Below the pieces are notes generated by a model that was given only the letters and a program-made list of their open reading frames with translations, had not been told where the DNA came from and made no database searches. Shown piece after piece: positions 43,319-60,476 of a stretch of DNA of 64,000 bases. Origin of the DNA: Asticcacaulis sp. MM231 (lineage in GTDB: Bacteria; Pseudomonadota; Alphaproteobacteria; Caulobacterales; Caulobacteraceae); assembly GCF_964186625.1 (NCBI RefSeq), contig NZ_OZ075110.1:124001-188000 (forward strand), in the 5' to 3' direction. Within the stretch, counting starts at the first letter, position 1. Each line of letters starts with the position of its first letter. A program made the position numbers and the translations under genes.

Positions 43319-44563
43319 CTATATCTTGCCGGCACCTGAAAGGACGGCGTCCAGTCCCCGCGGGTCGAGAATGGCCTGCGTGTTGCGATCGATAAGCCCG
43401 CCGGTGTCCCACAGGAAGGGTAAGAGCCCGTTCGCGAGCGCTTTCTGCGTGACGTACTTCAGCCAATGGACGCGCGAAGCCAGGTGCCGTTCCAGGTCCT
43501 TAGGCGTGCTTCGGATAATAGCGCCATACTCCCCCAGAATGACGGGGACGCCGGCATCGGTGAACAACCGCTTCACGATGGCCATTTGTTGATCGACATT
43601 ATCTTCCTCACCCCATATCGTATTGCGGTCGGGCTCAACCGTGGAATGATAGTCCTTGCCCCAGTAATAGAACATCTTTCCCCAGCTCTGGTCTTCCGTC
43701 ATGAGCGCGAACTGGAAAGGTGTATAGAAGTGCACTTCGGTCATGAGGCGGTTGGTAGCGCTGTCGACCGGCATCTTGTACCAGAGGGCGGCGGCATTAT
43801 CGATACTGGTGTTGGGCGCCTGCAGCACCAGGGTGCGATAGGCGTTCCTGCCACCGGTGGAACGGACCGTGTCGATGAAGGCCTGGTGATAAGCATACAG
43901 CACCTCCATCTGCTGCTTTGTTTCGCAGTTGGGCTCATTGGCGCTGGCCAGGACAAGCCGCTCGTCATAGTCGCGCAAGTGCGTAGCGATCTGCTCCCAA
44001 AACGCCCTCTGCTTGGCGATGACACCGTCCTTCGCGGCCGGTGTTACGTTGTTTTCAAGCCAGCCGCCGTCCCAATGGATGTTGAGCACCACGTACATGT
44101 CGGCATTGATGCAATACTGAACGACGTCCTTGACGCGATTAAGCCAGGTGCGGCTGATCTCGGCCGTGGCGGCATTGGCATATTGATTCCATGAACATGG
44201 CAGTCGAATGGCGTCAAAGCCCTTGGCCTTGGCCGTGTCAATCAGTGCCTGCGAGATAAGCGGATTGCCCCAGGCGGTTTCGCCACCTATGGCCTCAAGG
44301 GTATTGCCGATATTAAGCCCGAGCTTGATGCGCGCGGCGATCTCCGTGGCCGAACGCGTCATCCCGGACGCGTCCGCCGCCTTAGGGCGGGTATTGTAGC
44401 TTGGGTACAGTCCGCCTGAAGACGATGAGGCGCCCGCCCCCCCGTCATCACGTGTGACAACACCGCCTGACGCTGCCCCGCAAACGGCGCCCCCCAGTGG
44501 CAGAAGACTGATGCCCGCTGCGATAACCAGCTTACGGCGGTTGCTGTCGAAAGAAGGTTTCAT
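43319..44563 (-). CDS. GH5-family endo-beta-glucanase (GH5_4-like, xyloglucanase candidate)
   Basis: 414 residues. The N-terminus DSNRRKLVIAAGISLLPLGG is a Tat-like or Sec export signal, followed by a Ser/Gly linker. The GH5 barrel shows IKLGLNIGNTLEAIGGETAWGNP (the GH5_4 start), RLPCSWNQY, NIHWDGGW, the acid/base in ASANEPN (E210) and the nucleophile in ILGEYGA (E345). The family hydrolyses beta-1,4-glucan backbones; subfamily 4 is rich in xyloglucanases. It is the last gene of the polysaccharide locus and would cut the main chain, with side-chain enzymes encoded upstream. A hairpin separates it from gh39. Confidence 0.9.
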   Translation of the reverse strand: MKPSFDSNRRKLVIAAGISLLPLGGAVCGAASGGVVTRDDGGAGASSSSGGLYPSYNTRPKAADASGMTRSATEIAARIKLGLNIGNTLEAIGGETAWGNPLISQALIDTAKAKGFDAIRLPCSWNQYANAATAEISRTWLNRVKDVVQYCINADMYVVLNIHWDGGWLENNVTPAAKDGVIAKQRAFWEQIATHLRDYDERLVLASANEPNCETKQQMEVLYAYHQAFIDTVRSTGGRNAYRTLVLQAPNTSIDNAAALWYKMPVDSATNRLMTEVHFYTPFQFALMTEDQSWGKMFYYWGKDYHSTVEPDRNTIWGEEDNVDQQMAIVKRLFTDAGVPVILGEYGAIIRSTPKDLERHLASRVHWLKYVTQKALANGLLPFLWDTGGLIDRNTQAILDPRGLDAVLSGAGKI

Positions 44564-44579
44564 GGTGCTCCCGTGTGTA

Positions 44580-44653: not shown

Positions 44654-46237
44654 TTATGCCTGGGGCGTCAAGGTAATCAGAACGATGTCATTGCTGTTCA
44701 TCGGCAGAGTTACCTCGGCCGTTCCGGTCGCACCGATCGTCACGGTGCGCACGCTGTCGGGCTGATCGCGGGTGACATCCTGCAGGGTCGCCAGTTGCGC
44801 CGGGGTCAGATCCTTGGGGGAGCCCATGGCGATGTAATGGCTGTAGGCGTCATTGCGCTTATAGCCCGTGCGGCGAAGCGTCAGCGCGTATGTACCCGGC
44901 TTGAGACCGCTCAGCCTGACCTTGACCGGCGCGGAGGCTGCGTTTGGCACCAGCTTGCTGTAGAAGGTCCCGTTGCTGGTGCCCTTCTGGTCGGGGAGCT
45001 GGTAGTCCCAGACGACGGCGGATACCGAGGCGCCATCATAGGAGGCCCAGACCTGCTTGTCGGCGGCAGGGATTTCATGGCCGCGCAGGGCGTGGAGGTA
45101 TTTGTAGGCAAACCAGGAGGCCTTGCGGATCCCGTCCTTGGTCATCAGGCCGAAGCCGCCGTGGAAGGCGTTGCCCGGAGGGCCCGGCTCCTCGAACAGA
45201 TCGGAATAAACCCAGTAGCTCATCCCCTGGACAAGGCCTTGCGTGCCCTTCAGCTTGCTGAGGATATAGGGGGCCGCGACGTAGGAATCATGGGTCAGGT
45301 CGCGTGGATTATAGCTGGTGCTCCATTCGGTGAAGAACAAAGGCATACCCGGCAGATGCGAGGCTTCGATCTCACCCCGGACCTTGCGGACATCAGCGAT
45401 AATGGCGTCAGGATTCTTCGATAGCTGAAGATCCATCTTGCCCTCTTCATCGAGATAGCCGTAATCGACGCCGTAGGTGTGGGTGGAGGCGAAATCGACC
45501 GGCGTGTTGGTCGCTTTGGCGTAGGCCAGAAGCTCCGGCACCCAGGCGGCGCCCGCCGTTGACGGGCCGCCCACGCGCAGTTTTGCATCCACCGCCTTGA
45601 GCGTGCGGGCCGTGACGCCATAAAGCGCGAAATAGGCTTCCTGGTCGCCATACTGCCAGAAACCATCGAGATTGGGCTCGTTCCACACCTCGAAATACCA
45701 GCTCCGCACCTCGTCGATGCCATAACGTGCGATCAGGTGACGCGCGAAAGTATCGATCAGTTGTTCCCACAGATCGAGGCGCGGATGCGAGGTATTGCCC
45801 TTCCAGTAGAAGATCGTCTGGTCGGATGACTTCATCGCCGACGGTGTGAAACCCAGCTCGACGAAGGGCCGGATGCCCATTTTCAGGAAGGCGTCGTAGA
45901 GATAGTCGATCTTCGTCCAGTCATAGACCAGCTTGTTATCGACCATCTTCACCGTGCCGAGATCATCATGGAAGATGTCGTGCAGGCGGATGTAGCGGAA
46001 GCCCAGCTCATCACATGTGATCTTGAGCTGCGCCAGATTGGCGTCACGAATCGTCGTACCCGAATAGTCGGCGCCGACCGAAAGGTCAAAGAAGCGGTCA
46101 ATCGGTCGGGTGGCCTGGCGGACATCCAGGTCGACAAGGCGCGTGCCCGCCGGTTTGGCGAGGGCGCCGGTCGCCGGCAGGGCCGCACCAAGCGCGATCA
46201 GGGAAACCAGCGAGCGCCGGGAAAGGTGAGGTGTCAT
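44654..46237 (-). CDS. GH39-family glycosidase (beta-xylosidase-like)
   Basis: 527 residues with a twin-arginine-like leader (MTPHLSRRSLVSLIALGAAL to ALA). The GH39 barrel is recognisable by GFRYIRLHDIFHDD, the acid/base in YFEVWNEPNLDGFW (E187) and the nucleophile in PLFFTEWSTSYN (E304). A C-terminal beta-sandwich (about 410-527) follows. GH39 includes beta-xylosidases and alpha-iduronidases; exported xylosidase-like activity fits the locus, but the actual substrate (xylose or arabinose side chains) is unproven. No strong ribosome site is seen before 46237. Confidence 0.88.
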   Translation of the reverse strand: MTPHLSRRSLVSLIALGAALPATGALAKPAGTRLVDLDVRQATRPIDRFFDLSVGADYSGTTIRDANLAQLKITCDELGFRYIRLHDIFHDDLGTVKMVDNKLVYDWTKIDYLYDAFLKMGIRPFVELGFTPSAMKSSDQTIFYWKGNTSHPRLDLWEQLIDTFARHLIARYGIDEVRSWYFEVWNEPNLDGFWQYGDQEAYFALYGVTARTLKAVDAKLRVGGPSTAGAAWVPELLAYAKATNTPVDFASTHTYGVDYGYLDEEGKMDLQLSKNPDAIIADVRKVRGEIEASHLPGMPLFFTEWSTSYNPRDLTHDSYVAAPYILSKLKGTQGLVQGMSYWVYSDLFEEPGPPGNAFHGGFGLMTKDGIRKASWFAYKYLHALRGHEIPAADKQVWASYDGASVSAVVWDYQLPDQKGTSNGTFYSKLVPNAASAPVKVRLSGLKPGTYALTLRRTGYKRNDAYSHYIAMGSPKDLTPAQLATLQDVTRDQPDSVRTVTIGATGTAEVTLPMNSNDIVLITLTPQA

Positions 46238-46287: not shown

Positions 46288-48339
46288 TTATTGGAGAAGT
46301 TCAACGCCGTCGGCATCGAGGTGGAGGGTTCCGCTCCATGTCTTGCCGGTCAGGACGCTGGTGCCCTGGCCGTCCAGAACGACATCCTTCGGGCCGTAAG
46401 ACGCATTGACGTAAAGTGTGCGGCCATCGACGACCCGGGCATAAACACCCTCCGGTGTTTTCGGTCCCGGCACGATCTTCAGTTGCTTGTACAGGCTGCG
46501 GTACAAAGGCTGCATGATTGACGGCTGAGCCGGTGTGGCGACATAGATCGCCTGCCCCTTGCCGAACGCGTTGACCGTGATGACCGGCGGCGATCCCTCG
46601 ACATTGGAGAAACGCGCCATGACCTTTGCCGTCGAGGGTTCGAGCACTTCATAGAAGTTGATTGTGGTCGTGAAGTCGCTGTCGCCAATCTTGCCCGTCA
46701 GCGGCGCATAGTTGCGATAGAAGGCGTTGGTTTTCAGACCGAAAACATCGCTTAAACGGCCCGGCAGGGGCGTGTTGAACCACTGGTTGTGCTCATTGAC
46801 CTTGGCCGAGAAGGCCGTCATGATGACCGTACCGCCCGCCTTGACATAGTTACGGATCGCATCGGCTGAGGCCTGTGTCATCAGGTATTCACCCGGCACG
46901 ACCACGAGCTTGTACTGGCTGAGATCCTCATGGGCGATGTTGATCACGGCCACGTCGATATTGTCGTTATAGAGCGGGGCGAAGGCGTTGTGCTTTTGCT
47001 CCATGTAAGGCGTGGTGATGTATTGCTTGACCGTGTTGGACGGACCATTGGGACTGGACGCCACTTTTGATTCGAACGAGTAGGCGATCGCCGCCTGCGG
47101 CTCGAGCTTGCGCGGGAAACCCATTTTTTGCAGCTTCTTGAAGTCCGTGGCCATCGCGCCCCATTCATCGAGTTTCCACGACGGGGTGTCATCGTGATCG
47201 ATCAGGCCAAACAGAGCCTGCTCCTCACCGCCCAGATGGCTGTTGAAGGTCCAGGCCAACATACCCTGACCGCCGTTGAGCAGTCCGAAATAGGCCCACA
47301 TGCGCGACCGGCCCTTGGTGCCGTAATAGCCCCCGCCGCCCGCCTGAAACTCATTGAACCAACTCGGGGTCGTCAGCGCCCCCTTCATCATCATCGTCTC
47401 GAAGCCACCACTGATCGCGTCGCCATTGTAAAAGCCATACGACCCGTAGCTGACATAGGTCTTGTAGGTCGACAGATAGTCAAAGCCCTTGCGATCGCTT
47501 GAATCCCAGAGGTTCGAGATCGTCGGCTTGTCCGGCGCGTTGCGGCGGCGCGCCTGCTCCAGATCCATCAGGTTGTCTATAGTGACGTCAGACCAGAAGC
47601 GGCGCAGATCGAGGTAACGCTCAAAGGGGCCAGGGCCCTCGCCGTAGGGTAATTCGACCTGATCCCAATCGGTCAGGGTACGAGCCCAGCGCTGGGTTGC
47701 CCACGCCTTGTTCAAAGCCTCCAGCGTGACATATTTCTTCTGCAACCAGGCAATGAAGCGCGTGCGGTCGGCCGGCGAGTAGGACATGAAGCCGTTGCCG
47801 ATTTCGTTATTGTACCCGATGGCGATGACCGCCGGGTTTTTGCCGTAGCGCTTGGTCATGGCCTCGGCGAGATCCCGGGCCAGCCGGCGATAATCCGGAT
47901 CGCTGGTATCGTCCATGTAGCGCTCGGCGGCATAGAGCCGGGTGCCGTTCTGAGCCACCAGATCGACGCCGGGATATTTCTTGTGCAGCCACATCGGCGC
48001 CGGCTGTCCCGGAATGTCGACAATGACCTTGATGCCATTGGCGTGCATTTCGGCGATGACCGCATCGAACTTTTCAAAGGTGAAGACACCCTCAGCCGGC
48101 TGGAAATAATCCCACGACAGGTCACCCATTCTGACGACGGTAAAGCCTGCTTTTTTCATCAGGGCTATGTCCTGATGAATCTGTTGCGGCGTGCGATCGA
48201 CCGGCTGATAGTTTGCGCCGATGTAGAGTTGTCCGGCGCCCGGCCAGTCCGGATGCCCCGCGGCGCTTTGGGCTGAGGCCACCCCGGTGATCGCTGCGAA
48301 CAAGGCGGCGGTGCTGATAAGAAGAGCTTTAAGCTTCAT
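46288..48339 (-). CDS. GH42-family beta-galactosidase
   Basis: 683 residues with a signal peptide (MKLKALLISTAALFAAITGV ASA). The GH42 fold is recognised by the N-terminal IGANYQPVDRTPQQIHQDIALMKKAG, GFTVVRMGDLSWDYFQPAEG, the acid/base in IGYNNEIG (E179) and the nucleophile in SWFNEFQAG (E330). These are followed by the class-I-glutamine-amidotransferase-like trimerisation domain (KLVVVPGEYLMTQASADAIR) and a small C-terminal beta domain. It is an exported version of a normally cytoplasmic family. It would remove terminal beta-galactose from side chains after fucose is removed by GH29. Confidence 0.92.
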   Translation of the reverse strand: MKLKALLISTAALFAAITGVASAQSAAGHPDWPGAGQLYIGANYQPVDRTPQQIHQDIALMKKAGFTVVRMGDLSWDYFQPAEGVFTFEKFDAVIAEMHANGIKVIVDIPGQPAPMWLHKKYPGVDLVAQNGTRLYAAERYMDDTSDPDYRRLARDLAEAMTKRYGKNPAVIAIGYNNEIGNGFMSYSPADRTRFIAWLQKKYVTLEALNKAWATQRWARTLTDWDQVELPYGEGPGPFERYLDLRRFWSDVTIDNLMDLEQARRRNAPDKPTISNLWDSSDRKGFDYLSTYKTYVSYGSYGFYNGDAISGGFETMMMKGALTTPSWFNEFQAGGGGYYGTKGRSRMWAYFGLLNGGQGMLAWTFNSHLGGEEQALFGLIDHDDTPSWKLDEWGAMATDFKKLQKMGFPRKLEPQAAIAYSFESKVASSPNGPSNTVKQYITTPYMEQKHNAFAPLYNDNIDVAVINIAHEDLSQYKLVVVPGEYLMTQASADAIRNYVKAGGTVIMTAFSAKVNEHNQWFNTPLPGRLSDVFGLKTNAFYRNYAPLTGKIGDSDFTTTINFYEVLEPSTAKVMARFSNVEGSPPVITVNAFGKGQAIYVATPAQPSIMQPLYRSLYKQLKIVPGPKTPEGVYARVVDGRTLYVNASYGPKDVVLDGQGTSVLTGKTWSGTLHLDADGVELLQ

Positions 48340-48415: not shown

Positions 48416-49993
48416 TTAGGTGCGAAAGGTGATCTCAAACGCGCTGGAATGGCGCGTCGGCAGGGAGGCCGGCAGGTCGATGATCAGCGCCTCGGCCGTC
48501 TGGCGGAAGTTAAGCGCCTTCTTGACCCCCAGAAGCTTGACGCCACGCACGGTCTTAGCGCCTTGCTTTGATTTGCCCAACGCCTTCACGGCCACGCTTT
48601 GCACGGGCTCGCCCAGGGTGATCGCGTACAGCTTATCGCCGCGTGTCGTGAAGCGGATATCCTGCGCCGTATAGTCATTGGTTTCGCGGAAGGCGCCATC
48701 GACCGTTTCCGTCGGCCCCTCGCCAAAGCTATGCCACGGGCGCGTGCCGTGAATAGCGTCGCCATTGACCTTCATCCACGCCGCCAGCTCATCGAGCAGG
48801 GTCTGCGATTCCGGCGGCAGGCTGCCATCGGGATAGAGCACGACATTAAGCAGCAGATTGCCGTTCTTGCTGACGATGTCGGTCAGCATGGTAATCACCT
48901 GCGGCGCGGTCTTGTAGCTATAGTTGTCGCTGTAGAACCAGTCGCCGTTGGAGGTGTCGGTTTGCCACGGCCGCGGGTTGATGCCCTTGAGCACGCCGCG
49001 CTCGACATCCTGCACGCAGGTCTTGGCATGGAACTCACCCGAGCCCAGGTCCTTGCAGTTATAGACGGCCTGCACCGCGCCCTTTTGATCGGTGCTGCCG
49101 TTATAGAGGTGCGCCACCAGCGAACGGCCGACCACGCCGAACGGCAGGCCGCCGTCAGAATAGAGCAGATCCGGCTTGTAGGAGTCGATCAGATCGCTGA
49201 TCCGATTATACCAAAGCTGATGATAGGCGGGATCTTTTGTATACCAGCTTACCGCATCACCGCGATACTCTTCGCCCCTATTGTCATGATAAAGATCGAC
49301 GAATTTCGGATCAGCGCCGTCATAATTGACCCCCATCTTGGGCCAGAAGCGGTCAAACTGATGGCTGGTATAGAACCAGTTGTGGCTGGCGCCCAGATGC
49401 TCCGATACACCAAACCGCAGGCCACGTTTACGCGCGGCCTTGCTCCATTCGCCCACCACGTCACGCTTCGGTCCCATCTTCACGGCGTTCCAGCGATGCA
49501 GTTTTGAATCCCACAGATCGAAATTATCGTGGTGGACGCCCATGCTGACGAAATACTTGGCGCCGGCGGCTACATACTTATCCATAAGGGCTTCGGGATC
49601 GAATTTTTCCGCCGTCCACAACGGGATAATGTCCTTGTAGCCAAATTCGGAGGGATGGCCGTAGGCCTTCAGATGCTGGTCATAATGCGGATGTCCGGGC
49701 ACGTACATGAAGCGGGCATACCAGTCACCGGCACGCGGCACAGCCTGCGGTCCCCAGTGCGCCCAGATGCCGAACTTGGCATCACGGAACCACTCCGGCG
49801 CCTCATAGGTTTCGAGCGATTCCACAGTTGGCTGGAACGGCCCCTTGGCGATGGGCAGCTTGTAATCGGGCACTTTGGATGCCGGCGCGCACGCGCCCTC
49901 CGTCGTATCGGCCTCAGCCCGCACAGCGGCGGCCAGACCCAAGGTCGCCAAAATCGGAGCGCCTGCCAACAGGCTACGTTTACTGATCCGCAT
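48416..49993 (-). CDS. GH29-family alpha-L-fucosidase
   Basis: 525 residues from ATG 49993 (MRISKRSLLAGAPILATLGL), with AGGGAG upstream and an export signal. The family is clear from APEWFRDAKFGIWAHWGPQAVPRAGDWYAR, the HHDNFDLWDS motif and the nucleophile in PDLLYSDGGLPFG (D280). The C-terminal beta-sandwich (about 430-525) is normal. The enzyme releases alpha-linked L-fucose, consistent with fucosylated xyloglucan. It has a 185-bp upstream gap with an operator-like palindrome, so an internal promoter may exist. Confidence 0.93.
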   Translation of the reverse strand: MRISKRSLLAGAPILATLGLAAAVRAEADTTEGACAPASKVPDYKLPIAKGPFQPTVESLETYEAPEWFRDAKFGIWAHWGPQAVPRAGDWYARFMYVPGHPHYDQHLKAYGHPSEFGYKDIIPLWTAEKFDPEALMDKYVAAGAKYFVSMGVHHDNFDLWDSKLHRWNAVKMGPKRDVVGEWSKAARKRGLRFGVSEHLGASHNWFYTSHQFDRFWPKMGVNYDGADPKFVDLYHDNRGEEYRGDAVSWYTKDPAYHQLWYNRISDLIDSYKPDLLYSDGGLPFGVVGRSLVAHLYNGSTDQKGAVQAVYNCKDLGSGEFHAKTCVQDVERGVLKGINPRPWQTDTSNGDWFYSDNYSYKTAPQVITMLTDIVSKNGNLLLNVVLYPDGSLPPESQTLLDELAAWMKVNGDAIHGTRPWHSFGEGPTETVDGAFRETNDYTAQDIRFTTRGDKLYAITLGEPVQSVAVKALGKSKQGAKTVRGVKLLGVKKALNFRQTAEALIIDLPASLPTRHSSAFEITFRT

Positions 49994-50100
49994 GTTTAAC
50001 TCCCTTGGCCGCACGCTTGCGGCATCCTGTTGTCTGCAAACGATTGGCGGCTATTGTCGGTGCCGGTACGCTGCTATTTTTCAAAAATCATTCGCATATA

Positions 50101-50178: not shown

Positions 50179-52635
50179 CTACCTCGATAGGGCATGTAGC
50201 CATATCTTGCGGGATGGCAGGCCCTCGACGCTGACCTCCACCTCGATAAGACCGGCCGTCGTGCCCGCCTGAACGGCGGCTACAACCTGGCCATGAAAGG
50301 TTTTGCGATCGCCCGACTGGAAACTGGCCGCGTCCTGAGGATTTCCATTGCCTATACCGGCCAGGCGACCGGCACCCGTGACCCGCACCTGCACCTGGCG
50401 ATCATCAGCCCGGGCATAGATGGGCGCGCCCTTTGCATCGACCAGCGCTATGGTAACATAGGACAGGGCCTGACCATCCGCCTTGATCTGCGTCTTGTCG
50501 AGGCTCATCCGCGCATCGGTCGCTGCCCCTGCCGTGCGCAATTCCCAGCGCCCGGCGGCTTTGCCGTTTTGATACCCCACAGCCACAAGCGCACCGGGCG
50601 CATAGGGTACGGCATAGACGGCCTTGGACTCCGCGCCGACCGTTTTGCGCCCCAGGCTCTTGCCATTGAGGAACAGCTCAACGTCCGGATATTCCGAATA
50701 GACGACGACCTCAACCGGCTTGCCTTCCTGGCCGGGCCAGGTCCAGCTTGGATGCACGTCATCCAGGGACCAGTCGAGGTGGGGCGGCGTAATCGGGAAC
50801 AGGTGACGGTCCGGCAGGTCTTCTGTGCCCTCAGGCTGTTTTACGAAGGCGGAAATCGGATCAATGCCGGTTTTCCACAGCACTTCGCGATAATAGGCCG
50901 CCGGACGCTTGCGGCCGGTCACGTCTATTTCACCGCTATAGGCCAGATGCCAGGGGTAAGGCCCCAGTATTTGCCAGTCCTGACTGTAGCCCATCCAACC
51001 AATCCCGGTCTCGCCGATATAGTCAAACGCCGTCCAGACGAAATCGCCGATGACCGAGGGCATCTTTTCAACGGGTTGCCAGTACCGATAGGCCTCTTTC
51101 GAGGTCGATTCCGAGGTATACATCACGCGGTTGGGAAACCGCGCATGATCGAGCGCAAACTGATCGGGCTGGTAATTATAGCCGGCGACATCGAGTTCTG
51201 CGAACTGGCCGGTGCTGTCGGGCGGCCCGATATTAACGCCTTGCGTCACCAACCGCGATGGATCCAGCGCCTTGACGCGGGCATTTAACTGACGCGCCGT
51301 TTCGATACCTTGCGGCTTGCCCTGTTCCGGGATTTCATTGCCTATGCTCCAAAACAGGACGCTGGGGTGATTACGTCCACTGATCACCATGCTATCGATA
51401 TCACGGGCCCAGTTGGTGACGAAAAAGCGCGTATAGTCCTGCGGGCGTTTGCTGGTGTGCCAACTGTCAAAGGCTTCGTCGATGACCAGCATACCGAGTT
51501 CATCGGCGGCATCGAGTGTGGCCTGACTGGCCGGATTATGGGCGTTGCGTATGGCATTATAACCGGCGCCTTTCAGCAGGGCGACCTTGCGCGCATCGGC
51601 ATCCACAACGCCCGCCGCGCCGATCATGTAGTTGTCATGATGGATATTACCGCCACGCAGTTCCACAGGTTTGCCGTTGACGCGCAAGCCATGGGCGGCG
51701 TCCACCTCAAGGGTGCGCATGCCAAACCGTGTACGGCGCTCATCGACCGTGGCGCCCGCTACCCGCACCTCCTGCTCGAGATGGTAAAGGTTCGGCGTCT
51801 TGATCGACCACAGTTTTGGATGGTCAACCGTCAGCTTTTGACGCCACTGAACCTGTCCCTTAGCCGCGACCGTTTGCTTTTCGCTGGTCTGCGCTACGAT
51901 CAGGCCATCTGATGAGACAAGGCGGGACACCAGTTCAACCGCCTGGGCTTTAGCGCCGCAATTGGCCGTGGTCGCCTCTATGCTGGCGACACCTTGAGCC
52001 TCCGTGGCGACCGGCGTGGTGATAAAAACACTGTCCGGCTCGATATGGACGCAGTTGAGGACGTCCATCGTCACCGGCCGGAGGATGCCTGATCCGGCAT
52101 ACCAGCGTGACGACGGATCCGCGTGGTTGATGCGCACGGCGATGACATTATCCCCGGCCTTAACCAGCCCCGTCAGATCGACGGTAAAGGCGCTGTAGCC
52201 ATAGGCATGGCTGGCGATTTTTTTGCCATTAAGCCATATATCGGCGTCCATATAGACCGCCTCGAAATTCAGGCGGATGATTTTGGCGGCGTCGGCGGCG
52301 TCCAGTGTCATATGACGGCGATACCAGCCGATCCCGCCCGGCAGGTAACCCGAATCCTGCCCGGCCTCAGCCTTCGGGTCAAACGGTGGGCTGCCATCCG
52401 GCTTATCCATAATAGACCAGTCATGCGGCACCGAAACGCGCACCCAGGCCTGATCCTTGAGCGCCGACGTCTGCGCTTCGGCAACATCGCCTTTTTGAAA
52501 CAACCAGTCCTGCGATAAGGAACGCTGCTCGGCCTGCGCCAAGGGCGCCAGACATGTCATGACACCTGCCAAAATCAGTGCACAAAGAGGCAAACCAGAG
52601 TGTGTAGCGTGGCGCGTCATCATGTTTCGTTCCAT
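50179..52635 (-). CDS. GH2-family beta-galactosidase
   Basis: 818 residues; the start at 52635 is used, but an in-frame ATG at 52623 has the better ribosome site (GGAACG). A signal peptide (to about LAQA) is followed by the GH2 sugar-binding domain (VSVPHDWSI, GIGWYRRHM, WLNGKKIASHAYGYSAF), an Ig-like domain, and the catalytic barrel with RGGNIHHDNYMIG, acid/base in WSIGNEIPE (E434) and nucleophile in MYTSESTS (E509). DUF4982/DUF4981-like C-terminal Ig domains (about 620-818) follow. It is likely exported. Together with GH42 it gives two beta-galactosidase-type enzymes in one locus, which may split different linkages. It lies 22 bp downstream of the third halogenase gene. Confidence 0.92.
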   Translation of the reverse strand: MERNMMTRHATHSGLPLCALILAGVMTCLAPLAQAEQRSLSQDWLFQKGDVAEAQTSALKDQAWVRVSVPHDWSIMDKPDGSPPFDPKAEAGQDSGYLPGGIGWYRRHMTLDAADAAKIIRLNFEAVYMDADIWLNGKKIASHAYGYSAFTVDLTGLVKAGDNVIAVRINHADPSSRWYAGSGILRPVTMDVLNCVHIEPDSVFITTPVATEAQGVASIEATTANCGAKAQAVELVSRLVSSDGLIVAQTSEKQTVAAKGQVQWRQKLTVDHPKLWSIKTPNLYHLEQEVRVAGATVDERRTRFGMRTLEVDAAHGLRVNGKPVELRGGNIHHDNYMIGAAGVVDADARKVALLKGAGYNAIRNAHNPASQATLDAADELGMLVIDEAFDSWHTSKRPQDYTRFFVTNWARDIDSMVISGRNHPSVLFWSIGNEIPEQGKPQGIETARQLNARVKALDPSRLVTQGVNIGPPDSTGQFAELDVAGYNYQPDQFALDHARFPNRVMYTSESTSKEAYRYWQPVEKMPSVIGDFVWTAFDYIGETGIGWMGYSQDWQILGPYPWHLAYSGEIDVTGRKRPAAYYREVLWKTGIDPISAFVKQPEGTEDLPDRHLFPITPPHLDWSLDDVHPSWTWPGQEGKPVEVVVYSEYPDVELFLNGKSLGRKTVGAESKAVYAVPYAPGALVAVGYQNGKAAGRWELRTAGAATDARMSLDKTQIKADGQALSYVTIALVDAKGAPIYARADDRQVQVRVTGAGRLAGIGNGNPQDAASFQSGDRKTFHGQVVAAVQAGTTAGLIEVEVSVEGLPSRKIWLHALSR

Positions 52636-52657: not shown

Positions 52658-54163
52658 TCAGAGGTCTGCCGGGCAGTAGGACTGAATAAAGTCAGCGTGA
52701 CCCGGCAGGGCCTGAGCTGCCTTCATAACGGCCGATCTGAGCACCAGAATAGCGGTCTTCATGTCGTTCGCCGGTATACTGTCCGCAACGGGGTCGTGCC
52801 TGACGGGCGTGATGCCCTGACCGAGCATCACCGCCATCCAGCTATCTTCGGTAAACAGATCGTCCTTAAAGCGGAAGATGCGGCCACTGTCGCGGAACAG
52901 TTCCATCTTGTGCTTCAGGCTGTCCGGCACATCCATGTCGCGGCATTGCCGCCAGAGGGGCGTGTCGTCACGCTTGGTCGCTTTATAATGCAGAATGATG
53001 AAGTCGCGGATCTGCTCGTATTCGAGACGGCTTGCCTGGTTGAATTCATCACGCAAGGCCGGATTGACATCGCGGTCGGGGAAGAGGCGCATCAGCCGTG
53101 TGACGGCGGCCTGAACCAGATGAATACTGGTCGATTCGAGCGGCTCGATAAATCCCCCGGCCAAACCGATAGCGACCACATTCTTGTCCCAGAATGTCCG
53201 CCTGTGGCCGGCCTTGAACCGCAGGAAGCGAGGTTCCGCCAGGGCGCGGCCATCCAGGGTCTCCCGCAATCTGGCGGCGGCGGCCTCATCATCAAGGTGC
53301 GCACTGGAATAGACATAACCATTCCCCACCCTGTGTTGCAGGGGAATGCGCCAGCGCCAGCCGGCGGCGTCCGCCATCGAGCGCGTATAAGGCAGCAGAG
53401 GGCCTGCCTGTTCGCACGGCTGGGCGACCGCACGATCACAGGGCAGCCATTGGGTCCAGTCGACATAGCCCGCCTTCAGCGTTTGCTCGATCAGGAGTCC
53501 ACGAAAACCGCTGCAGTCAAGAAAGAGATCGCCGTCAAGTGTGCGCCCGTCCTTGAGGACCAGCGAGGTGACGAAACCCTTCTCGTCCTGCCTGATTTCA
53601 GTGACCAGACCTTCGATCCGGAGGGCGCCGCGCGCTTCTGAATAGGCGCGCAAGTACCGGGCGTAAAGCGCCGCATCGAAGTGATAGGCATAGCGCAAGC
53701 TTGCGGCGAGCCCCCCCTTGGCTTTTGCCTTGCCAAAACGGTTCATCCGCGCCGCAATAAGCGTTAGATTGTAATCACTGATCTCGCCAACATCCGCAGC
53801 GTGTTCGCGCAATTTCAGCCACATCTGGTGAAACTTCACCTCAGGACGGTCAAGCCCGTAGGTCCCGAAGGGATGGATATAGGACTCACCCAAGCCTCCC
53901 CAATCGGTGAACTCTATGCCGAGCTTGAAGGTCGCACCGGTCTTGCGCATGAAATCGGCTTCATCAAGGCCCAGGATGGTATTGAAGTTTTGAATCGCCG
54001 GGATCGTTGCCTCGCCCACCCCGATTGTGCCGATGTCGTCGGATTCAACCAAGGTCACCGACACCTGGGACGCCGCCAAAAGGCGCGTCAAGGCCGCCGC
54101 CGCCATCCATCCGGAGGTTCCGCCGCCGACAATAACAACGCGACGTATAGGTTCAGTCGGCAT
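52658..54163 (-). CDS. Flavin-dependent (tryptophan-type) halogenase 1
   Basis: 501 residues; start MPTEPIRRVVIVGGGTSGWM at 54163 (ribosome site GGGAGA), overlapping the upstream gene by 11 nt. It has the FAD-binding GxGxxG-type site (GGGTSGWM, residues 13-20), the tryptophan-halogenase lysine (TFK80LGIEF; equivalent of PrnA Lys79), the halogenase fingerprint WxWxIP (W269-R-W271-R-I-P274) and FIEPLESTS (E343-S344; equivalent to PrnA Glu346-Ser347). All residues needed for HOCl-type halogenation are present. The substrate is unknown. Such enzymes use FADH2 from a separate flavin reductase; none is encoded here. Confidence 0.9.
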   Translation of the reverse strand: MPTEPIRRVVIVGGGTSGWMAAAALTRLLAASQVSVTLVESDDIGTIGVGEATIPAIQNFNTILGLDEADFMRKTGATFKLGIEFTDWGGLGESYIHPFGTYGLDRPEVKFHQMWLKLREHAADVGEISDYNLTLIAARMNRFGKAKAKGGLAASLRYAYHFDAALYARYLRAYSEARGALRIEGLVTEIRQDEKGFVTSLVLKDGRTLDGDLFLDCSGFRGLLIEQTLKAGYVDWTQWLPCDRAVAQPCEQAGPLLPYTRSMADAAGWRWRIPLQHRVGNGYVYSSAHLDDEAAAARLRETLDGRALAEPRFLRFKAGHRRTFWDKNVVAIGLAGGFIEPLESTSIHLVQAAVTRLMRLFPDRDVNPALRDEFNQASRLEYEQIRDFIILHYKATKRDDTPLWRQCRDMDVPDSLKHKMELFRDSGRIFRFKDDLFTEDSWMAVMLGQGITPVRHDPVADSIPANDMKTAILVLRSAVMKAAQALPGHADFIQSYCPADL

Positions 54164-55682
54164 GTTGCGTCTCCCGGCAGAAGCGGGCGACATAGTCATG
54201 ATGGAACGGCATGGCTTGCGTGGTCTGTGCAATATAGTCGCGCACGGAGCGCATATGGGCTTCAAGTTCGGCGTTCGGGATCGTATCCACAAGCGAGTTG
54301 TAACCGCGTGGTGTCAGGCCCTGCCCTGTCATGACCGACATCCAGCTCGCACCGGTGAAAAGATGGTCCGCGGTAACGAGCATACGGCCGCGCGCGGCGA
54401 AAAGCTCAATCGCTTCGTTGACCGAGTCCGGCACCTCCATAGCCTGGCAATAGCGCCAGAACAGCGTGTCGTCCCGCTGTGTCACCTTGTAGTGCAGGAT
54501 CAGGAAATCGCGCAGACGCTCGTACTCGGCCTCAGTATGGCGGTTGTAGGCGGCGATGTCAGCGGCTTCGAACCCCTTGTCCGGAAACAGAGCCAACAGC
54601 TTCAGAACACCGGTTTGAATGAGGTGGATGCTGGTCGATTCCAAGGGCTCCAGAAAGCCGGAAGCAAGACCAATGGCCACGCAATTCTTGATCCAGAACG
54701 CCTTACGCCGGCCGGTCACGAAGGGAATACGGCGCGGGGCGGCCAGGGGCTCGCCGTCCAGCGACTCCAGCAGCCGGCGCTCCGCAGCCTCGTCATCGAT
54801 GAAGGCGCTGGAGAAAACGTAACCGTTGCCGACGCGGTGCTGCAAGGGTATGCGCCAGCGCCAGCCGGCGGTATCAGCCGTCGAACGTGTGTAGGGCGCA
54901 GCCGGGGCGGCATTGGCGCACGGCACCGCCACGGCCCGGTCGCACGGCAGCCAGTGCCGCCACGCGACAAAGCCGCTTTTCAGGGACTGTTCGATCAGAA
55001 GGGCGCGTTGGCCCGTGCAATCGATGAACAGGTCCCCCTCGATCGTCTGGCCGTCTTCCAGAACCAGGGCCTGCAAAAAACCCGTCTCGGCCTCGCTGCG
55101 CACATCCCTGATCTTACCTTCGAGGCGGGTGACGTCGCGCTTTTCACTATAGGTGCGCAAAAACCTGGCATAGAGACTGGCGTCGAAGTGAAAGGCGTAT
55201 TTAATCGCCCCGACCGGCACACGTTCGCCGCCCACCGGATGGGTAAAGCGGTTGTTGCGCGCCGCCACGCAACAGAGGTTATAGTCGTCCAGCGTCGATA
55301 CCTCGCCTGCCGCCGCTTTCATCCCGGCGTATTTCAGCCAAAGCTCATGAAAGAAGACATTGTTGAGATCGCGCCCGTAGGTGGTGAACGGGTGGATATA
55401 GCGGCGGCCGATATCACCCCAATCGACAAATTCGATGCCAAGCTTAAACGTCGCCTGACAGGTGCGCATAAATTCGGCCTGGTCTATGCCCAGCATCGTG
55501 TTGAAAAAATGAATGGCCGGGATGGTCGCTTCGCCGACGCCGATCGTGCCAATCTCGTCGGATTCGACCAGCGTGATCTTCATCGGACTGCCGGCAAAGG
55601 CCTTGCTGAGCGCGGCCGCCGTCATCCAGCCCGCCGTGCCGCCACCAGCGATAATCACATGTTGGATAGGTTCAGGCTTCAT
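54153..55682 (-). CDS. Flavin-dependent (tryptophan-type) halogenase 2
   Basis: 509 residues, closely related to halogenase 1 and probably a tandem duplicate. FAD motif GGGTAGWM (13-20), Lys80 in TFKLGIEFVDW, WxWxIP (W274-R-W276-R-I-P279) and FLEPLESTS (E348-S349) are intact. The start overlaps the stop of halogenase 3 as ATGA; its own stop overlaps halogenase 1 by 11 nt, so the three are translationally linked. It lacks a signal peptide, so it acts in the cytoplasm on an imported or endogenous aromatic. Cytoplasmic location beside exported glycosidases and a TonB receptor is notable. Confidence 0.9.
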   Translation of the reverse strand: MKPEPIQHVIIAGGGTAGWMTAAALSKAFAGSPMKITLVESDEIGTIGVGEATIPAIHFFNTMLGIDQAEFMRTCQATFKLGIEFVDWGDIGRRYIHPFTTYGRDLNNVFFHELWLKYAGMKAAAGEVSTLDDYNLCCVAARNNRFTHPVGGERVPVGAIKYAFHFDASLYARFLRTYSEKRDVTRLEGKIRDVRSEAETGFLQALVLEDGQTIEGDLFIDCTGQRALLIEQSLKSGFVAWRHWLPCDRAVAVPCANAAPAAPYTRSTADTAGWRWRIPLQHRVGNGYVFSSAFIDDEAAERRLLESLDGEPLAAPRRIPFVTGRRKAFWIKNCVAIGLASGFLEPLESTSIHLIQTGVLKLLALFPDKGFEAADIAAYNRHTEAEYERLRDFLILHYKVTQRDDTLFWRYCQAMEVPDSVNEAIELFAARGRMLVTADHLFTGASWMSVMTGQGLTPRGYNSLVDTIPNAELEAHMRSVRDYIAQTTQAMPFHHDYVARFCRETQHAD

Positions 55683-57235
55683 GTAACCACCCTGCCAACG
55701 GTATTTGACCGAACAGGAGGTTGGCCACTCCGACAGATGGCTTCGACGAGGTCGCGGTGGCTGGGCAGGAAGCGCAAGGCCTTGTCGGCATGGCGTTCGA
55801 CTTCGCGGAAGGCCGCGCGCGCCGCGTCGAAATAACGATAGGCGTCTCGACGCGCGGAAAGATCGGTCGGAAATCTCATGCCGTAAAGCACCTGTCGCCA
55901 GTTGGTTTCGACGAACGTGTCATGGCCGTAATCCACATCAATAAAGTCCGGCATGCGATAGCGCCAGCGTTCAAGGCGGTCTTTCAGGGCATCGGAAAGA
56001 GACTCCGCCCGGCAATTATCGATCCAGAAATCGCTGTCGCGGCGCTGGCTCAGGCAATAGTGCAGCTTGATAAAGTCGAAGATATTTTCAAAGCGCCGGG
56101 TCATCTTGTCGTTAAACTGCCGGGCGGCGACATCGAGTGGCCCCGCCCACGGCAAAACGGCTGCCAGGAGCAAACCGGCGCTTTCGGCAAGGCCGATCCC
56201 CGTCGCTTCGAGCGGTTCGACGAACCCTGCCGACAGGCCAATAGCGACGCAGTTCTTGTGCCACTGGGTTTTGCGGTATCCGGTTTCAAAGGCGAGCCTG
56301 CGGGGTTCAATATCCTCTACGCCGGGGCCCATATAGGCTTTCAGGGTTTTTATCGCGTCGTCCTCGGAGCCATGATCCGACGAATAGACATAGCCCACGC
56401 CACGGCGGTGTCGCAGACCGATATCCCAGATCCAGCCGGCCTTTTCCGCCCTGGCTTTTGTGCAGGAGGGTATATCCCCGGCGGGATTATCGTAGGGCTG
56501 CTGTATGGCCACGGCGCGATCGACGAACAGTTCGTTACGACGCGAGACAAACGGGATATTCAGCGCGTCACCGATCAGCTGCGCCCGAAAGCCGGTGCAA
56601 TCGATATAGAGGTCGGCGCGTTGATCGCCGTTTTTCTCCGTCGCCAACCGATTGATCGCCCCGTCGGCATCGAGGTGAACCGCGACGACCTTGTCGGTGA
56701 TATGTTTGACGCCCATTTTGACCGCATGACGCGCCAGAATACCGGCGAAGGCAACCGCGTCGATATGATAGGCGTAGGCCAGCGTACCTGCGTAATCGGG
56801 CTGGCCCGGTTGCTTGGGGCCGCGCATTCCCTCGATAACCCGTGCCTGGGGGTTGGCGGCTGAGGCCCATGGCAGACCGCCGCCCTCGCCCAGAAGCCAG
56901 TAGGGCAGAAGATCCATGCCGCCCGGACGGCTGACCGGATGGAAAAGGTGATAATAGCTGTCGTCGCCACGCGCCCAGTTCTCAAAGCGGACGCCCTGTT
57001 TGAAGGTGGCACCGGCTTCTGTGAACAGCAGGCGCTCATCGAGCCCAATACGCGACAAGGTTTTCAGGATACTGGGGAAGGTCCCCTCGCCCACCCCTAT
57101 GGGGCCGATCTCCGGCGCTTCGATCACGGTGAGTTGGACGCCGCCGGGACGGTCACTGGATAACATACGCGCGAGATAATTCGCCGTTACCCAGCCCGCG
57201 GTACCGCCTCCGACAATAGTAATGGCTTTTATCAC
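55679..57235 (-). CDS. Flavin-dependent halogenase 3 (divergent subfamily)
   Basis: 518 residues with the start taken at GTG 57235 (MIKAITIVGGGTAGWVTANY). An upstream ATG at 57316 would add 27 residues of non-family sequence and abut the receptor gene; it cannot be excluded. FAD motif GGGTAGWV and Lys79 (TFKQGVRFENW) are present. The WxWxIP fingerprint reads WIWDIGLRH with Pro replaced by Gly, and the active-site segment reads FVEPLEATGIGL with Ala where halogenases 1 and 2 have Ser. It is clearly more distant from the other two. Substrate and activity are unproven; it is the first of three coupled halogenase genes behind the receptor. Confidence 0.85.
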   Translation of the reverse strand: MIKAITIVGGGTAGWVTANYLARMLSSDRPGGVQLTVIEAPEIGPIGVGEGTFPSILKTLSRIGLDERLLFTEAGATFKQGVRFENWARGDDSYYHLFHPVSRPGGMDLLPYWLLGEGGGLPWASAANPQARVIEGMRGPKQPGQPDYAGTLAYAYHIDAVAFAGILARHAVKMGVKHITDKVVAVHLDADGAINRLATEKNGDQRADLYIDCTGFRAQLIGDALNIPFVSRRNELFVDRAVAIQQPYDNPAGDIPSCTKARAEKAGWIWDIGLRHRRGVGYVYSSDHGSEDDAIKTLKAYMGPGVEDIEPRRLAFETGYRKTQWHKNCVAIGLSAGFVEPLEATGIGLAESAGLLLAAVLPWAGPLDVAARQFNDKMTRRFENIFDFIKLHYCLSQRRDSDFWIDNCRAESLSDALKDRLERWRYRMPDFIDVDYGHDTFVETNWRQVLYGMRFPTDLSARRDAYRYFDAARAAFREVERHADKALRFLPSHRDLVEAICRSGQPPVRSNTVGRVVT

Positions 57236-57329
57236 GACATACGGTCTCGAAATCTCTGGGGACCTGGGGCCAAATCTTGCGCCGGATGGCTCTGCGCAAG
57301 GGGTGCGAAAAGCCATCCGGACTTAAGAC

Positions 57330-60300
57330 TTAGTAAGCGAAGTTAAGACCGAACTCGATACGACGATCCGATTCATAGTAATTACGCGGGTAGAACTTGC
57401 CCGGTTTTATCTCCATATCGCTTCTTGCTACCTCGTTTGTCAGGTTACTGGCCTGCACGGAAATCCGAATGCGGTCGCTGACCTTGTAGTTGGCGCCGAA
57501 ATCGAGCTGACCGTAATCACGCCCATAGAGCGGCAGGTTATAGTGGATGGTCTCACAATGGCCCTCAGTATCCGAACAGTAGGTGTAGCCACTGCCGACC
57601 GTGCCTGTTCCGTTGGTATTGGTGCCCATCAGGAAACGACTGCGCCAGTTATAGGCCAATCCGACATACAAAGGCCCCTTCGAATACATCAGATTCAGAT
57701 TGTAGGTGTAACGCGACAGACCCACGACGGGCAGAGCGGAGAAGCGGTTGCCATCCAGATCATACGCTTTCGGCGCCGGGTTGCGGCTTTCAATATAGGT
57801 GAAGTTGGCATCGATTCCGAAACCGCTCCAGAAGCCGGGAAGGCTGTCAAAGAAGGTGCGACCGCCAAATTCAAAACCCTTGATCGTTGCGTTTTCATCG
57901 GCGTTTGTCGCCTGACTGGTCGTCAGGGTTGACACGCCCGAAACAGCCGTGCCGTCCGTTTTGGTGAAGTCGTAAGGGAAGGGAACGACCGAGTCACCGA
58001 AGACAATCAGATCTTTGAGATCCTTATGGAAGAAGGCGAGATGGGCCGTCGTGCTCCAGCTTTTGTACCACTCCAGCGAAAGATCAAAGTTTGTGGCGAT
58101 CGTGGGCTTCAGCGTCGTGTTGCCAATACTGGCCGTCACGCGGTCGAAGATCGGCTTGAAGACGTGGTTCACCTCTCCGCCAGGGGTCGATTCGGTATAG
58201 TTGTTACCGTTCAGCTGCGTGGTGACCGATCCATTGCCCGCGACCGTGATGTCCGAGAAGGATGGACGCGACATGGTCTGGTTGGCCGCCAGGCGAACAA
58301 AGAAGGTGTCGGACGGCTTGAAGTTGATGTTGAACGCCGGCAGAGCGCGCGCATCTTCACTTTCGTCGACGCGATTTTGTACATCTTCTGACAGATGCAC
58401 GGCGCGCGGCGTCAAGGTGCCTGTCGGATCAGCCTGGAAGTCGGCATTGGCATCGGCCTGATTCATATAGAAATCACTTTGCGCAAAGACAAAGTTGCCG
58501 CTCGCCTCGGTAGAGGTCTTAGTATAACGGATACCGACATTACCCGTATAGGGCACGCCGAAAAGTCCCGTCTCGCTGCCGAACTTGGCCATAAGATAGA
58601 CCGACTCCGTTTTCACCGCCGTGCGCGACCCACCATGCTTGTGTTGCACAACTTGTTCAGGCGTCACCGGCACGACCGTACCGTCGGCCAGGGTTATGGT
58701 GTTACTGTAGCCATAGGTATTCATGATGTACGCGAAGTCATTGGACTTCAGAAGATCAGACGACGGCACATAGAAAACGCCCGGAACGGGCACGTCATTA
58801 TGGAAGAAATTATCGAAGCCATAATATTCGCTGTCTTCCGCTGGGCCATCGGACAAATGGGTTACAGGCGATCCATTCCAGCCCGCCCCCAAGGACGCCC
58901 AGTAGGTGCCATCATAATTGTCGTGCTCGACCCGGTTGGCTTCACGAACGCCCATGCTGATCGTCTTGAAGAAGCCATCCCCCAGTTCGTAATCAGCATC
59001 GAGATTGGCAGCCACCATCGTGGCGTGATTGTTGGTCGGGCGCCAACTGATCTGACTCCATTGATAGCTGGCAGGGGAGGTCAGGGACTGAGAATTATCG
59101 ATCAGGAACTTGGGCGTATCGCCACTCAGATCGACGCTGAAGCCTGTGACGGGCACAGACAGACCTGCCGACATACCGGTGGATTTCGCCGACGAATCGA
59201 CAAACTGCAAAGCGCCGCGCGCACGCAGACGATCGCCCGTCCAGGTAAAGCCCTGGCTGAAGTCGCGGGTGATATTATCCGTCGTCGAGAAACCCCGACT
59301 GCTGCCGGCAGATGAGTTTGCGACCGCACAGCTGGGAGGCGACGCACCCCAATCCAGACTGGTGGCCTGTTGACCATAGGGCGCGTTACAATCGACCTGC
59401 TGATCTTCGCTAAGCCAGCCCTGGCCAACGGTAGAGCCAGCGCTGCCGTCGTTAAAGGAGGCATTCGACATGTGATCGGCCGTGACCAGAACGCCGTTTT
59501 CGTCAAAGGTGGCGTCGCCGGAGGTCGGCATGAGGCGATCGCTCGACAGCCAGGCGCTCGTGCCGTTGTTGTTGCTGGTGTAGTGGGTCTGGAAGAAGGT
59601 CTGGAAAATCACCAGATGATCATTCGGCCTCCACTGGAAGGCTTCATAAAGCCCCGTGCGCTCGCGCTCAAAGTGATCGTCGCCCCAGCCGAAACCCGCC
59701 GGCATGTAGCGGTCCTCGCCCTGGTAGAGCTTCTTGTAGTAGGGCTCGACGCTGAGATGGCCCGTCTGGGACAGGAATTTCGAATAGGCCACATCGACCA
59801 GGAAACCCATTTCGCCGACCGGGGTGTCGAAACGCTTGGTGACAAGGGCTGAAATCGACGGCGAGGACCGCCCGACCAGGTCCCCCTTGCTGAGCCCGAC
59901 TGACCCCTCAAACGCCGGCTTTTTGTAGTCAAACGGCATCTTGGTGCGCAGGTCGATGGAGCCGCCCGTTCCGCCTTCGATCAGGTCAACACGCGTCGCC
60001 TTGTAGACGTCAACCGCAGCCATCAGTTCCGGCGTAACCTCGCCCCACATCAATCCGGAACCGCCATTGGCGGAAAAGACTTCGCGACCATTGAGCATGC
60101 TGCTGGGATTTGACAGGCCGCGAATCTGAATACCCGAGCCTTCTACCTGGAAGGAATCGCCAGACCCATTGAAGCGGCTCATGGTGACGCCCGGAATGCG
60201 CGCCAGCACCTCAGTGATCGAATTGTCCGGCAAACGGCCGGCTTCGTCGGCCACCACAGAATCGATCATGGTGTCGGATTTTTTCTTCAACTCGGTGGCG

Positions 60301-60476
60301 CTTTGCAGCGCCTTGCGGCGGGCCGTAACGACGACAACCGTATCATCGCGCTTTGCAGTGGCGTCCGTCGTGGTCTCCGAGGGTGCCTCCTGCGCCTGAG
60401 CGGACGCTGCGAACGTCACCAGCGTCAGGGCGGAAACGCCCACGCTCAGCCAAAGCTTCAATCTCGCTTGTTTCAT
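57330..60476 (-). CDS. TonB-dependent receptor of the polysaccharide/halogenase locus
   Basis: 1048 residues with a signal peptide (MKQARLKLWLSVGVSALTLV to ASAQA), an N-terminal TonB-box-like DDTVVVVTARRKALQSATELKKKSDTMIDSVVADEAGRLPDNSITEVLARIPGV, plug motifs IQIRGLSNPSSMLNGREVFSANGGS and VDVYKATRVDLIEGGTGGSIDLRT, and a long barrel ending FGLNFAY (terminal aromatic). It belongs to the large 'CadA/oar-like' receptors that import oligosaccharides in Caulobacterales and Xanthomonads. As the first gene of a 17-kb co-directional locus it most likely imports oligosaccharides released by the exported glycosidases. The start is 95 bp upstream of the halogenase 3 GTG. Confidence 0.92.
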   Translation of the reverse strand: MKQARLKLWLSVGVSALTLVTFAASAQAQEAPSETTTDATAKRDDTVVVVTARRKALQSATELKKKSDTMIDSVVADEAGRLPDNSITEVLARIPGVTMSRFNGSGDSFQVEGSGIQIRGLSNPSSMLNGREVFSANGGSGLMWGEVTPELMAAVDVYKATRVDLIEGGTGGSIDLRTKMPFDYKKPAFEGSVGLSKGDLVGRSSPSISALVTKRFDTPVGEMGFLVDVAYSKFLSQTGHLSVEPYYKKLYQGEDRYMPAGFGWGDDHFERERTGLYEAFQWRPNDHLVIFQTFFQTHYTSNNNGTSAWLSSDRLMPTSGDATFDENGVLVTADHMSNASFNDGSAGSTVGQGWLSEDQQVDCNAPYGQQATSLDWGASPPSCAVANSSAGSSRGFSTTDNITRDFSQGFTWTGDRLRARGALQFVDSSAKSTGMSAGLSVPVTGFSVDLSGDTPKFLIDNSQSLTSPASYQWSQISWRPTNNHATMVAANLDADYELGDGFFKTISMGVREANRVEHDNYDGTYWASLGAGWNGSPVTHLSDGPAEDSEYYGFDNFFHNDVPVPGVFYVPSSDLLKSNDFAYIMNTYGYSNTITLADGTVVPVTPEQVVQHKHGGSRTAVKTESVYLMAKFGSETGLFGVPYTGNVGIRYTKTSTEASGNFVFAQSDFYMNQADANADFQADPTGTLTPRAVHLSEDVQNRVDESEDARALPAFNINFKPSDTFFVRLAANQTMSRPSFSDITVAGNGSVTTQLNGNNYTESTPGGEVNHVFKPIFDRVTASIGNTTLKPTIATNFDLSLEWYKSWSTTAHLAFFHKDLKDLIVFGDSVVPFPYDFTKTDGTAVSGVSTLTTSQATNADENATIKGFEFGGRTFFDSLPGFWSGFGIDANFTYIESRNPAPKAYDLDGNRFSALPVVGLSRYTYNLNLMYSKGPLYVGLAYNWRSRFLMGTNTNGTGTVGSGYTYCSDTEGHCETIHYNLPLYGRDYGQLDFGANYKVSDRIRISVQASNLTNEVARSDMEIKPGKFYPRNYYESDRRIEFGLNFAY

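Follow-up and report, generated by a model that had tools for sequence, protein, structure and literature searches.

What role do flavin-dependent halogenases play between a TonB-dependent receptor and a series of glycosidases? The question is raised by a 64,000-nucleotide stretch of the Asticcacaulis sp. MM231 genome (contig NZ_OZ075110.1, positions 124,001 to 188,000; hereafter the window, whose own numbering is used below), in which nine co-directional genes on the minus strand encode a TonB receptor, three PF04820 halogenases (H1, H2, and H3), and members of the glycoside hydrolase (GH) families GH2, GH29, GH42, GH39, and GH5, in this order, each scoring above the Pfam cut-off. Order and strand agree with an earlier reading made from the letters of the window alone (the sequence-only reading), which had tentatively placed halogenation in a carbohydrate-uptake programme, for example acting on aromatic substituents released with plant cell-wall oligosaccharides. 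Comparison of halogenase loci within the source genome and across other bacteria shows that halogenases of this kind track the TIGR01782-type (TonB-Xanth-Caul) receptor family across Proteobacteria, not one particular sugar, and that the tandem modules found elsewhere consist of paralogues in a set order, the second of which is usually catalytically dead.

Linkage of halogenases to a TonB receptor family

The source genome (three contigs, 4.65 Mb) encodes 22 PF04820 genes, recovered as 23 matches because one gene is split in two, and such matches occur in 23 of 24 genomes of the same genus, at 3 to at least 30 per genome. For 10 of its 14 halogenase clusters, a TIGR01782 match, weak matches counted, is found no more than 2.5 kb away, against 2.2 expected at random (p = 2e-4, the lowest value that 5000 simulations can give), and for five of them no more than 500 bp away, against 1.4 (p = 0.007). 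An eleventh cluster, L023, adjoins a different type of TonB receptor, which brings the clusters with an adjacent or nearly adjacent receptor to 11 of 14. As a separate observation, L021 (G000:C1:274923-277549) has a receptor beside a halogenase, with stop codons inside one matched stretch.

Related loci were taken from GTDB genomes of Alpha-, Beta-, and Gammaproteobacteria as the best 80 of 587, a sample that hence favors close relatives of H3. In 68 of these 80 loci, the distance from the matched halogenase array to a receptor is at most 1.2 kb (64 by profile and four, L094, L096, L102, and L115, by Pfam identification); the number rises to 73 at 2.3 kb and to 74 at 4 kb. Three of the remaining six (L069, L091, and L100) are cut off by a contig edge. 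In the initial gene calls, a receptor gene preceded the halogenase run directly on its 5' side in 57 of 77 loci (46 co-directional and 11 divergent), to which Pfam adds four. In all 10 annotated plasmid regions examined, out of 91 matched records, the receptor and halogenase are direct neighbors or have a single gene between them; in two of these regions a gene for DUF6445 or a 2-oxoglutarate (2OG) oxygenase separates the two. Across 150 genomes of the phylum, searched at E 1e-100 for the halogenase and E 1e-90 for TIGR01782 with up to five receptor candidates scored per genome, halogenases were found in 13 genomes and receptors in 19, and all 13 halogenase carriers are also receptor carriers (hypergeometric p = 1.5e-14, a value that is too small because the lineages are not independent). 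Of the 38 halogenases listed outside the source genome, 26 have a listed receptor at a distance of up to 4.5 kb, the same limit of five candidates applying. Thus, the receptor is the most constant partner of the halogenases. The sequence-only reading had named confinement of this neighborhood to one genome as a result that would refute it; instead, the same neighborhood turns up repeatedly in Alpha-, Beta-, and Gammaproteobacteria, and the earlier placement of the halogenases in a TonB-receptor uptake programme is supported by the linkage across loci.

The sugar-related genes differ from one locus to the next. The halogenase loci of the source genome contain GH3 and GH30 (L028), GH130 (L027), a glucoamylase-like gene (L023), and GH76 (L033) and GH85 (L032), the last two being loci without a close receptor, and the plasmid loci include sucrose/fructan sets with LacI, GH32, GH68, and amylosucrase. 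A scan of the co-directional next genes (47 of 49 scanned; 31 convergent next genes left out) identified six members of the alpha-amylase family, four S9 peptidases, three GH97 enzymes, and three 2OG-FeII oxygenases. The cargo thus ranges over sucrose/fructan, starch-type, mannan-type, and cell-wall substrates, which makes a role in modifying aromatic substituents unlikely in general.

Within the genus, however, the glycosidase set of the window genuinely recurs alongside H1-like halogenases, and this is the evidence that speaks for halogenation of substituents, such as ferulate and coumarate, released with cell-wall oligosaccharides. In L147, GH42, GH39, and GH5 genes follow the receptor and an H1-like halogenase; in genome G014, a receptor (37% identity) and H1 (55%) are followed by GH42 (77%), GH39 (77%), and GH5 (69%); and in Croceibacterium, GH39 and GH43 come after a divergent and a canonical halogenase (D-A in the code defined below). 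L143, one of two loci of genome G015, encodes a receptor, a halogenase, a BNR/Sortilin-repeat protein, a ROK regulator, GH42 (79%), GH29 (73%), and a GH5-like gene that is cut by the end of the stretch; an H1-like match (52%) was placed there. BNR/Sortilin repeats, as known from GH74 enzymes, would together with GH29, GH42, and GH5 fit xyloglucan as a substrate. On the other side, the same halogenase family occurs in loci for sucrose/fructan and in alpha-amylase loci, where the sugars are free of aromatic groups, and the glycosidases of the window have signal peptides by eye, whereas H2 and H3 have none. Moreover, the other G015 locus (L142, the same block as L041) encodes the receptor, H1, H2, and H3 at 68, 72, 72, and 71% identity, followed by VirB/Trb conjugation genes instead of the glycosidases of the window, despite a GH2 gene upstream on the opposite strand. 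Thus, the halogenase and receptor form a more general unit than the halogenase and glycosidases, and we regard action on released substituents as very unlikely; as a general role, the proposal of the sequence-only reading is not supported, given the sucrose/fructan, GH130, alpha-amylase, and S9 peptidase loci. The L142 block (L142:11210-19030) may move between replicons, as it stands beside VirB/Trb genes.

Ordered halogenase arrays and the dead second copy

Halogenase arrays were scanned in six frames in the window, 13 further loci of the source genome, the 80 relatives, and the 10 plasmid loci. This yielded 28 arrays of at least three halogenases, of which 25 were left after removal of near-duplicates and 23 had an assessable second gene. 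Each copy was coded as A (canonical, active), x (dead, with the catalytic Lys and/or Glu lost), or D (divergent, H1-like). The second gene is dead, having lost Lys, Glu, or both, in 19 of the 23 assessable arrays, and no other position is; in L049, one of the two unassessable arrays, the second-gene fragment also lacks the Lys. Since Lys and Glu define the classes, GxGxxG and WxWxIP alone are independent of the class definition. Among 20 dead copies, Lys is kept in three, Glu in one, both in none, GxGxxG in six, and WxWxIP in none, whereas among the 153 copies with both catalytic residues GxGxxG is kept in 152 and WxWxIP in 143. In the phylogenetic tree, the dead copies form one clade (support 0.977), the copies at position 1 form another together with one L089 member (0.98), and the D copies a third (1.0); copies at positions 3 and 4 form no clade. 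In the two closest pairs, the dead copies have dN/dS ratios (nonsynonymous over synonymous substitution rates) of 0.15 and 0.14 and their active neighbors 0.04–0.12; the dead second copies are under purifying selection.

These figures bear on a further explanation, namely that no specific halogenation takes place and the proteins are FAD-dependent oxidases or redox helpers, or passengers of operon duplication. The altered WxWxIP of H1, the existence of dead copies, and the halogenases without a receptor nearby are consistent with it. However, the near-complete retention of both motifs in the 153 copies and the low dN/dS of active copies in the two closest pairs argue against it, and relatives halogenate in vitro (PMC5945002, PMC7336383). 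We therefore consider this explanation improbable.

The four exceptions to the dead second position are the window and L041 (both D-A-A), L089 with five active copies, and L069, whose first member is cut by the contig edge. Two other arrays of the source genome, L022 and L029, do show the A-x-A(-A) order. Being D-A-A, the window belongs to the wider receptor-linked group but not to the dead-copy type. Two array members deserve mention in their own right: the third of the five L089 copies branches as sister to the dead clade but has retained Lys, Glu, and WxWxIP, making it a possible intermediate, and the third halogenase of the A-x-A array in L022 (L022:12393-13894) is split over two frames.

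The three halogenases of the window fit these classes as follows. H2 (54153–55682, minus strand) and H3 (52658–54163, minus strand) contain all four tryptophan-type motifs of PF04820 (GxGxxG, the catalytic Lys, WxWxIP, and the catalytic Glu) and are canonical copies. H1 (55679–57316, minus strand) retains GxGxxG, Lys, and Glu and has WIWDIG at the WxWxIP site; it falls in the D clade, and we file it as a divergent relative of flavin-dependent tryptophan-type halogenases rather than a canonical member, as its motifs indicate. Homology of H1 starts near 57235, and the called start of its open reading frame may be too early. The functional roles of these motifs are known, in part from PMC5945002. 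The nearest solved chains of H1 are 9lu2 (L11-2 putative tryptophan halogenase; 399.5 bits) and 2pyx (named as a tryptophan halogenase; 393 bits), both known here by name alone, and H1 differs from them in standing at position 1 of a receptor-linked array. H3 matches 6y1w (Xcc4156) and 9luq at 536 bits each and 6frl (BrvH) at 484, and shares its motifs with BrvH and Xcc4156, both indole-type flavin-dependent halogenases. No signal peptide is discernible by eye on H2 or H3, unlike on the receptor and glycosidases. Genes for nonribosomal peptide synthetases, polyketide synthases, or tailoring enzymes are absent from the nine identified genes, in agreement with the sequence-only reading, and the locus is not a natural-product halogenase cluster. 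Two other candidate interpretations were rejected: H1–H3 have no PADLOC match to a defense system, and there is no room for the precursor of a ribosomally synthesized and post-translationally modified peptide between the receptor, halogenases, and GH2 gene (the receptor–H1 gap is 13 bp, or 94 nt with an H1 start at 57235, and 22 bp precede GH2).

The nine-gene locus and its flanks

The receptor gene (57330–60476, minus strand) encodes 1048 amino acids with a Sec-type signal by eye, scores 508.7 bits against the TIGR01782 profile (cut-off 310), and belongs to a group of long, array-linked receptors; a PDB sequence search with it gave no match at 1e-3. The glycosidases, all on the minus strand and with signals likewise judged by eye, comprise a beta-galactosidase-like GH2 protein with DUF4982 and GH2_C5 domains (50179–52635; signal peptide), a GH29 alpha-L-fucosidase (48416–50014; Tat-like signal), GH42 (46288–48339; signal peptide), GH39 (44654–46237; Tat-like), and GH5 (Pfam Cellulase; 43319–44563; Tat-like). 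H1 and H2 overlap by 4 nt (ATGA, 55679–55682), and H2 and H3 by 11 nt when H3 starts at ATG 54163, the start adopted here, with which the FAD motif sits N-terminal; the open frame extends to 54292, and 22 bp separate H3 from GH2. The junctions read earlier from the sequence are thus confirmed, the 11-nt overlap with this choice of start. The gaps within the glycosidase part reach up to 164 bp, so that a single operon of nine genes is no more than likely.

TonB-receptor CUT loci (carbohydrate utilization loci containing TonB-dependent transporters) are known from Xanthomonas and Caulobacter. Like these and the polysaccharide-utilization loci (PULs) of Bacteroidetes, the nine-gene locus combines a receptor, here of the TIGR01782 type, with co-directional glycosidases, exported as judged by eye from their N-termini, and has a regulator gene alongside; unlike both, it has three halogenases between the receptor and the glycosidases. 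No SusD-like gene is found among the nine genes, in contrast to Bacteroidetes PULs, and therefore it is classed as a TonB-receptor carbohydrate locus and not as a Sus-type PUL. The earlier description as a PUL is corrected accordingly.

Upstream of the receptor, an IclR-family regulator is encoded divergently (61090–61992, plus strand) and is a candidate regulator of the receptor operon. The 613-bp divergent intergenic region (60477–61089) contains one terminator-like hairpin on the minus strand (60859–60832), with terminator matches no more numerous than in shuffled sequences, and no inverted repeat was found in it. The promoter scan (12 matches versus 9.2 in shuffles, sd 2.7) and the terminator scan (19 versus 17.0, sd 4.5) showed no excess, and Rfam gave nothing at gathering score within 40000–64000. 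Also beside the operon lies a probable two-component pair, with a histidine-kinase ATPase domain gene (61948–62523) and a gene for a sigma-54 response regulator (from 63165 up to the end of the window; L034:3166-4458); a HipA-like gene (HipA_C) is located at 28899–30215.

Regulators of the IclR class often respond to small aromatics or sugar acids. The divergent regulator thus favors an alternative in which the halogenase substrate is a small aromatic molecule (for example, an indole or phenolic signal) that enters through the receptor or is sensed together with it, as does the in vitro activity of BrvH and its Xanthomonas relatives on indole-type compounds (PMC5945002, PMC7336383). Against this stand the low turnover of BrvH on indole (PMC5945002), the absence of biosynthetic genes from the nine-gene set, and the 22 paralogs in one genome with a receptor near 11 of 14 clusters, which are hard to reconcile with a single shared metabolite. 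On balance, the small-molecule alternative seems doubtful to us.

Candidate substrates of the receptor-linked halogenases

Our tentative reading is that the locus is a TonB-receptor carbohydrate uptake operon carrying a receptor-linked halogenase module, the enzymes of which modify a protein or peptide partner, most economically the receptor. Somewhat less assured, though possible, is the narrower version in which the halogenases are cytoplasmic and their target is an aromatic side chain in a protein or peptide, the simplest candidate being the receptor before export. The halogenases would act in the cytoplasm with reduced flavin (FADH2) supplied by a general flavin reductase; a search for the PF01613 family found two such reductases in the genome, both on contig C1, the window being on C3. 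The halogenase set would brominate or chlorinate an aromatic (indole-type) side chain of the partner, for which the most economical candidate is the chain of the putatively co-expressed receptor prior to Sec export. A dead or divergent copy may serve as a recognition subunit, halogenation may tune ligand binding or exposure of the receptor, and the glycosidases would be the cargo-specific part, with no chemical coupling to halogenation. We infer each of its elements: the cytoplasmic site, the halogenating activity, the peptide or protein substrate, and the receptor as this substrate.

A peptide substrate would fit the behavior of BrvH, which accepts indole, with slow turnover, but not free tryptophan, and whose site could admit larger substrates (PMC5945002). 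The same arguments hold equally for another protein or peptide of the uptake apparatus, such as TonB, a periplasmic partner, or an imported peptide, and the S9 peptidase next to the halogenase in four of 47 loci adds to this case; since the receptor is the most constant neighbor among the compared loci, such a target appears distinctly unlikely.

The reading in which the receptor is modified draws further support from neighboring genes. In some loci, genes for Cupin_8/JmjC, a 2OG-Fe(II) oxygenase, DUF6445, or SapC are located between the receptor and halogenase or next to them, and companion genes lie between the two in L024, L027, L029, L037, and L138. Seed searches anywhere in the 80 related loci found Cupin_8 14 times, 2OG-FeII_Oxy_5 six times, SapC and DUF6445 five times each, and a 236–251 aa protein without a Pfam match twice; the same searches around 17 unlinked receptors of the source genome found none of these. 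Judging from such neighbors, the halogenases may be part of a broader set of receptor-linked O2-dependent enzymes. The 236–251 aa protein is encoded between the receptor and the halogenase array at L029:13469-14179 and L042:5550-6305. The pairs Fiu-YbiX and PiuA-PiuC consist of a TonB receptor and a PKHD hydroxylase. They resemble the present locus in placing an O2-dependent enzyme beside a TonB receptor, and differ in using a 2OG-Fe(II) enzyme and another receptor type; the window contains one such pair, made up of a 758-aa receptor and, next in order, a PKHD-type 2OG-Fe(II) hydroxylase (36260–39290).

The array-linked receptors are also distinct as a group. They are longer than the 17 unlinked receptors of the source genome (median 1105 aa, n = 25, versus 974; p = 3.6e-7), and 24 of the 25 fall within one group of 29 (support 0.89). 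Halogenase and receptor distances correlate at array position 1 (r = 0.80, n = 23), 2 (0.63, n = 21), 3 (0.53, n = 22), and 4 (0.71, n = 11), all at the permutation floor of 5e-4, and for single halogenases (r = 0.34, p = 0.0025, n = 56), with shared species history included in all of these values. Trp occupies five of 41 subfamily-specific columns of array receptors versus one of 72 shared columns (p = 0.023, post hoc), which slightly favors the receptor as a possible substrate.

Several observations weigh against this reading. Direct evidence of halogenation is lacking for any receptor. The co-divergence across loci still contains species history, and among the paralogs of the source genome a mirror-tree comparison shows no correlation between halogenase and receptor distances (r = -0.26, n = 8). 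No aromatic site is common to all halogenase-linked receptors; the overall Trp content is not raised (p = 0.11), and linked receptors have a lower Tyr content (p = 1e-4 for arrays, 0.004 for singles). Unlinked TIGR01782 receptors coexist in the source genome, so that halogenation cannot be a general requirement for receptor function. Conversely, three of the 14 source-genome clusters have no close receptor (L025 has none in its stretch; in L032 and L033 it is about 8 kb off), nor do three of the 80 related loci (L065, L112, and L114). Finally, the dead copy evolves faster than its neighbors in eight of eight pairs, with dN/dS up to 0.61 in a distant pair, and the array of the window itself, as D-A-A, has no dead copy.

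A search of open-licence literature (titles and abstract openings, bioRxiv excluded) revealed neither an association of halogenases with TonB receptors nor a dead halogenase partner. The BrvH gene is also adjoined by a second halogenase gene (PMC5945002), and the word TonB is absent from the main text of PMC5945002, PMC7336383, and PMC8269204, whereas the receptor link is the main result here. A table of Sphingomonas colony-morphology genes in PMC11340318 includes a tryptophan halogenase gene once, which is a hint at most, and cyanophages too carry tryptophan halogenase genes, with a role given as unknown (PMC2984593, PMC11337851).

BrvH- and Xcc4156-like enzymes are active in vitro, and PMC7336383 describes the natural substrates of BrvH and the Xanthomonas enzymes as unknown. 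The tie to the receptor and the conserved dead array member narrow the candidate substrates and turn the question into one that can be tested by mass spectrometry on one protein. It is a speculative and rather unlikely generalization that receptors in many Proteobacteria are halogenated by a dedicated cytoplasmic halogenase complex with a dead adaptor, encoded beside the receptor and tuning uptake or hiding it from phages. If receptors do prove to be the substrate, halogenation of proteins by enzymes would be common among bacteria and tied to the uptake of nutrients.

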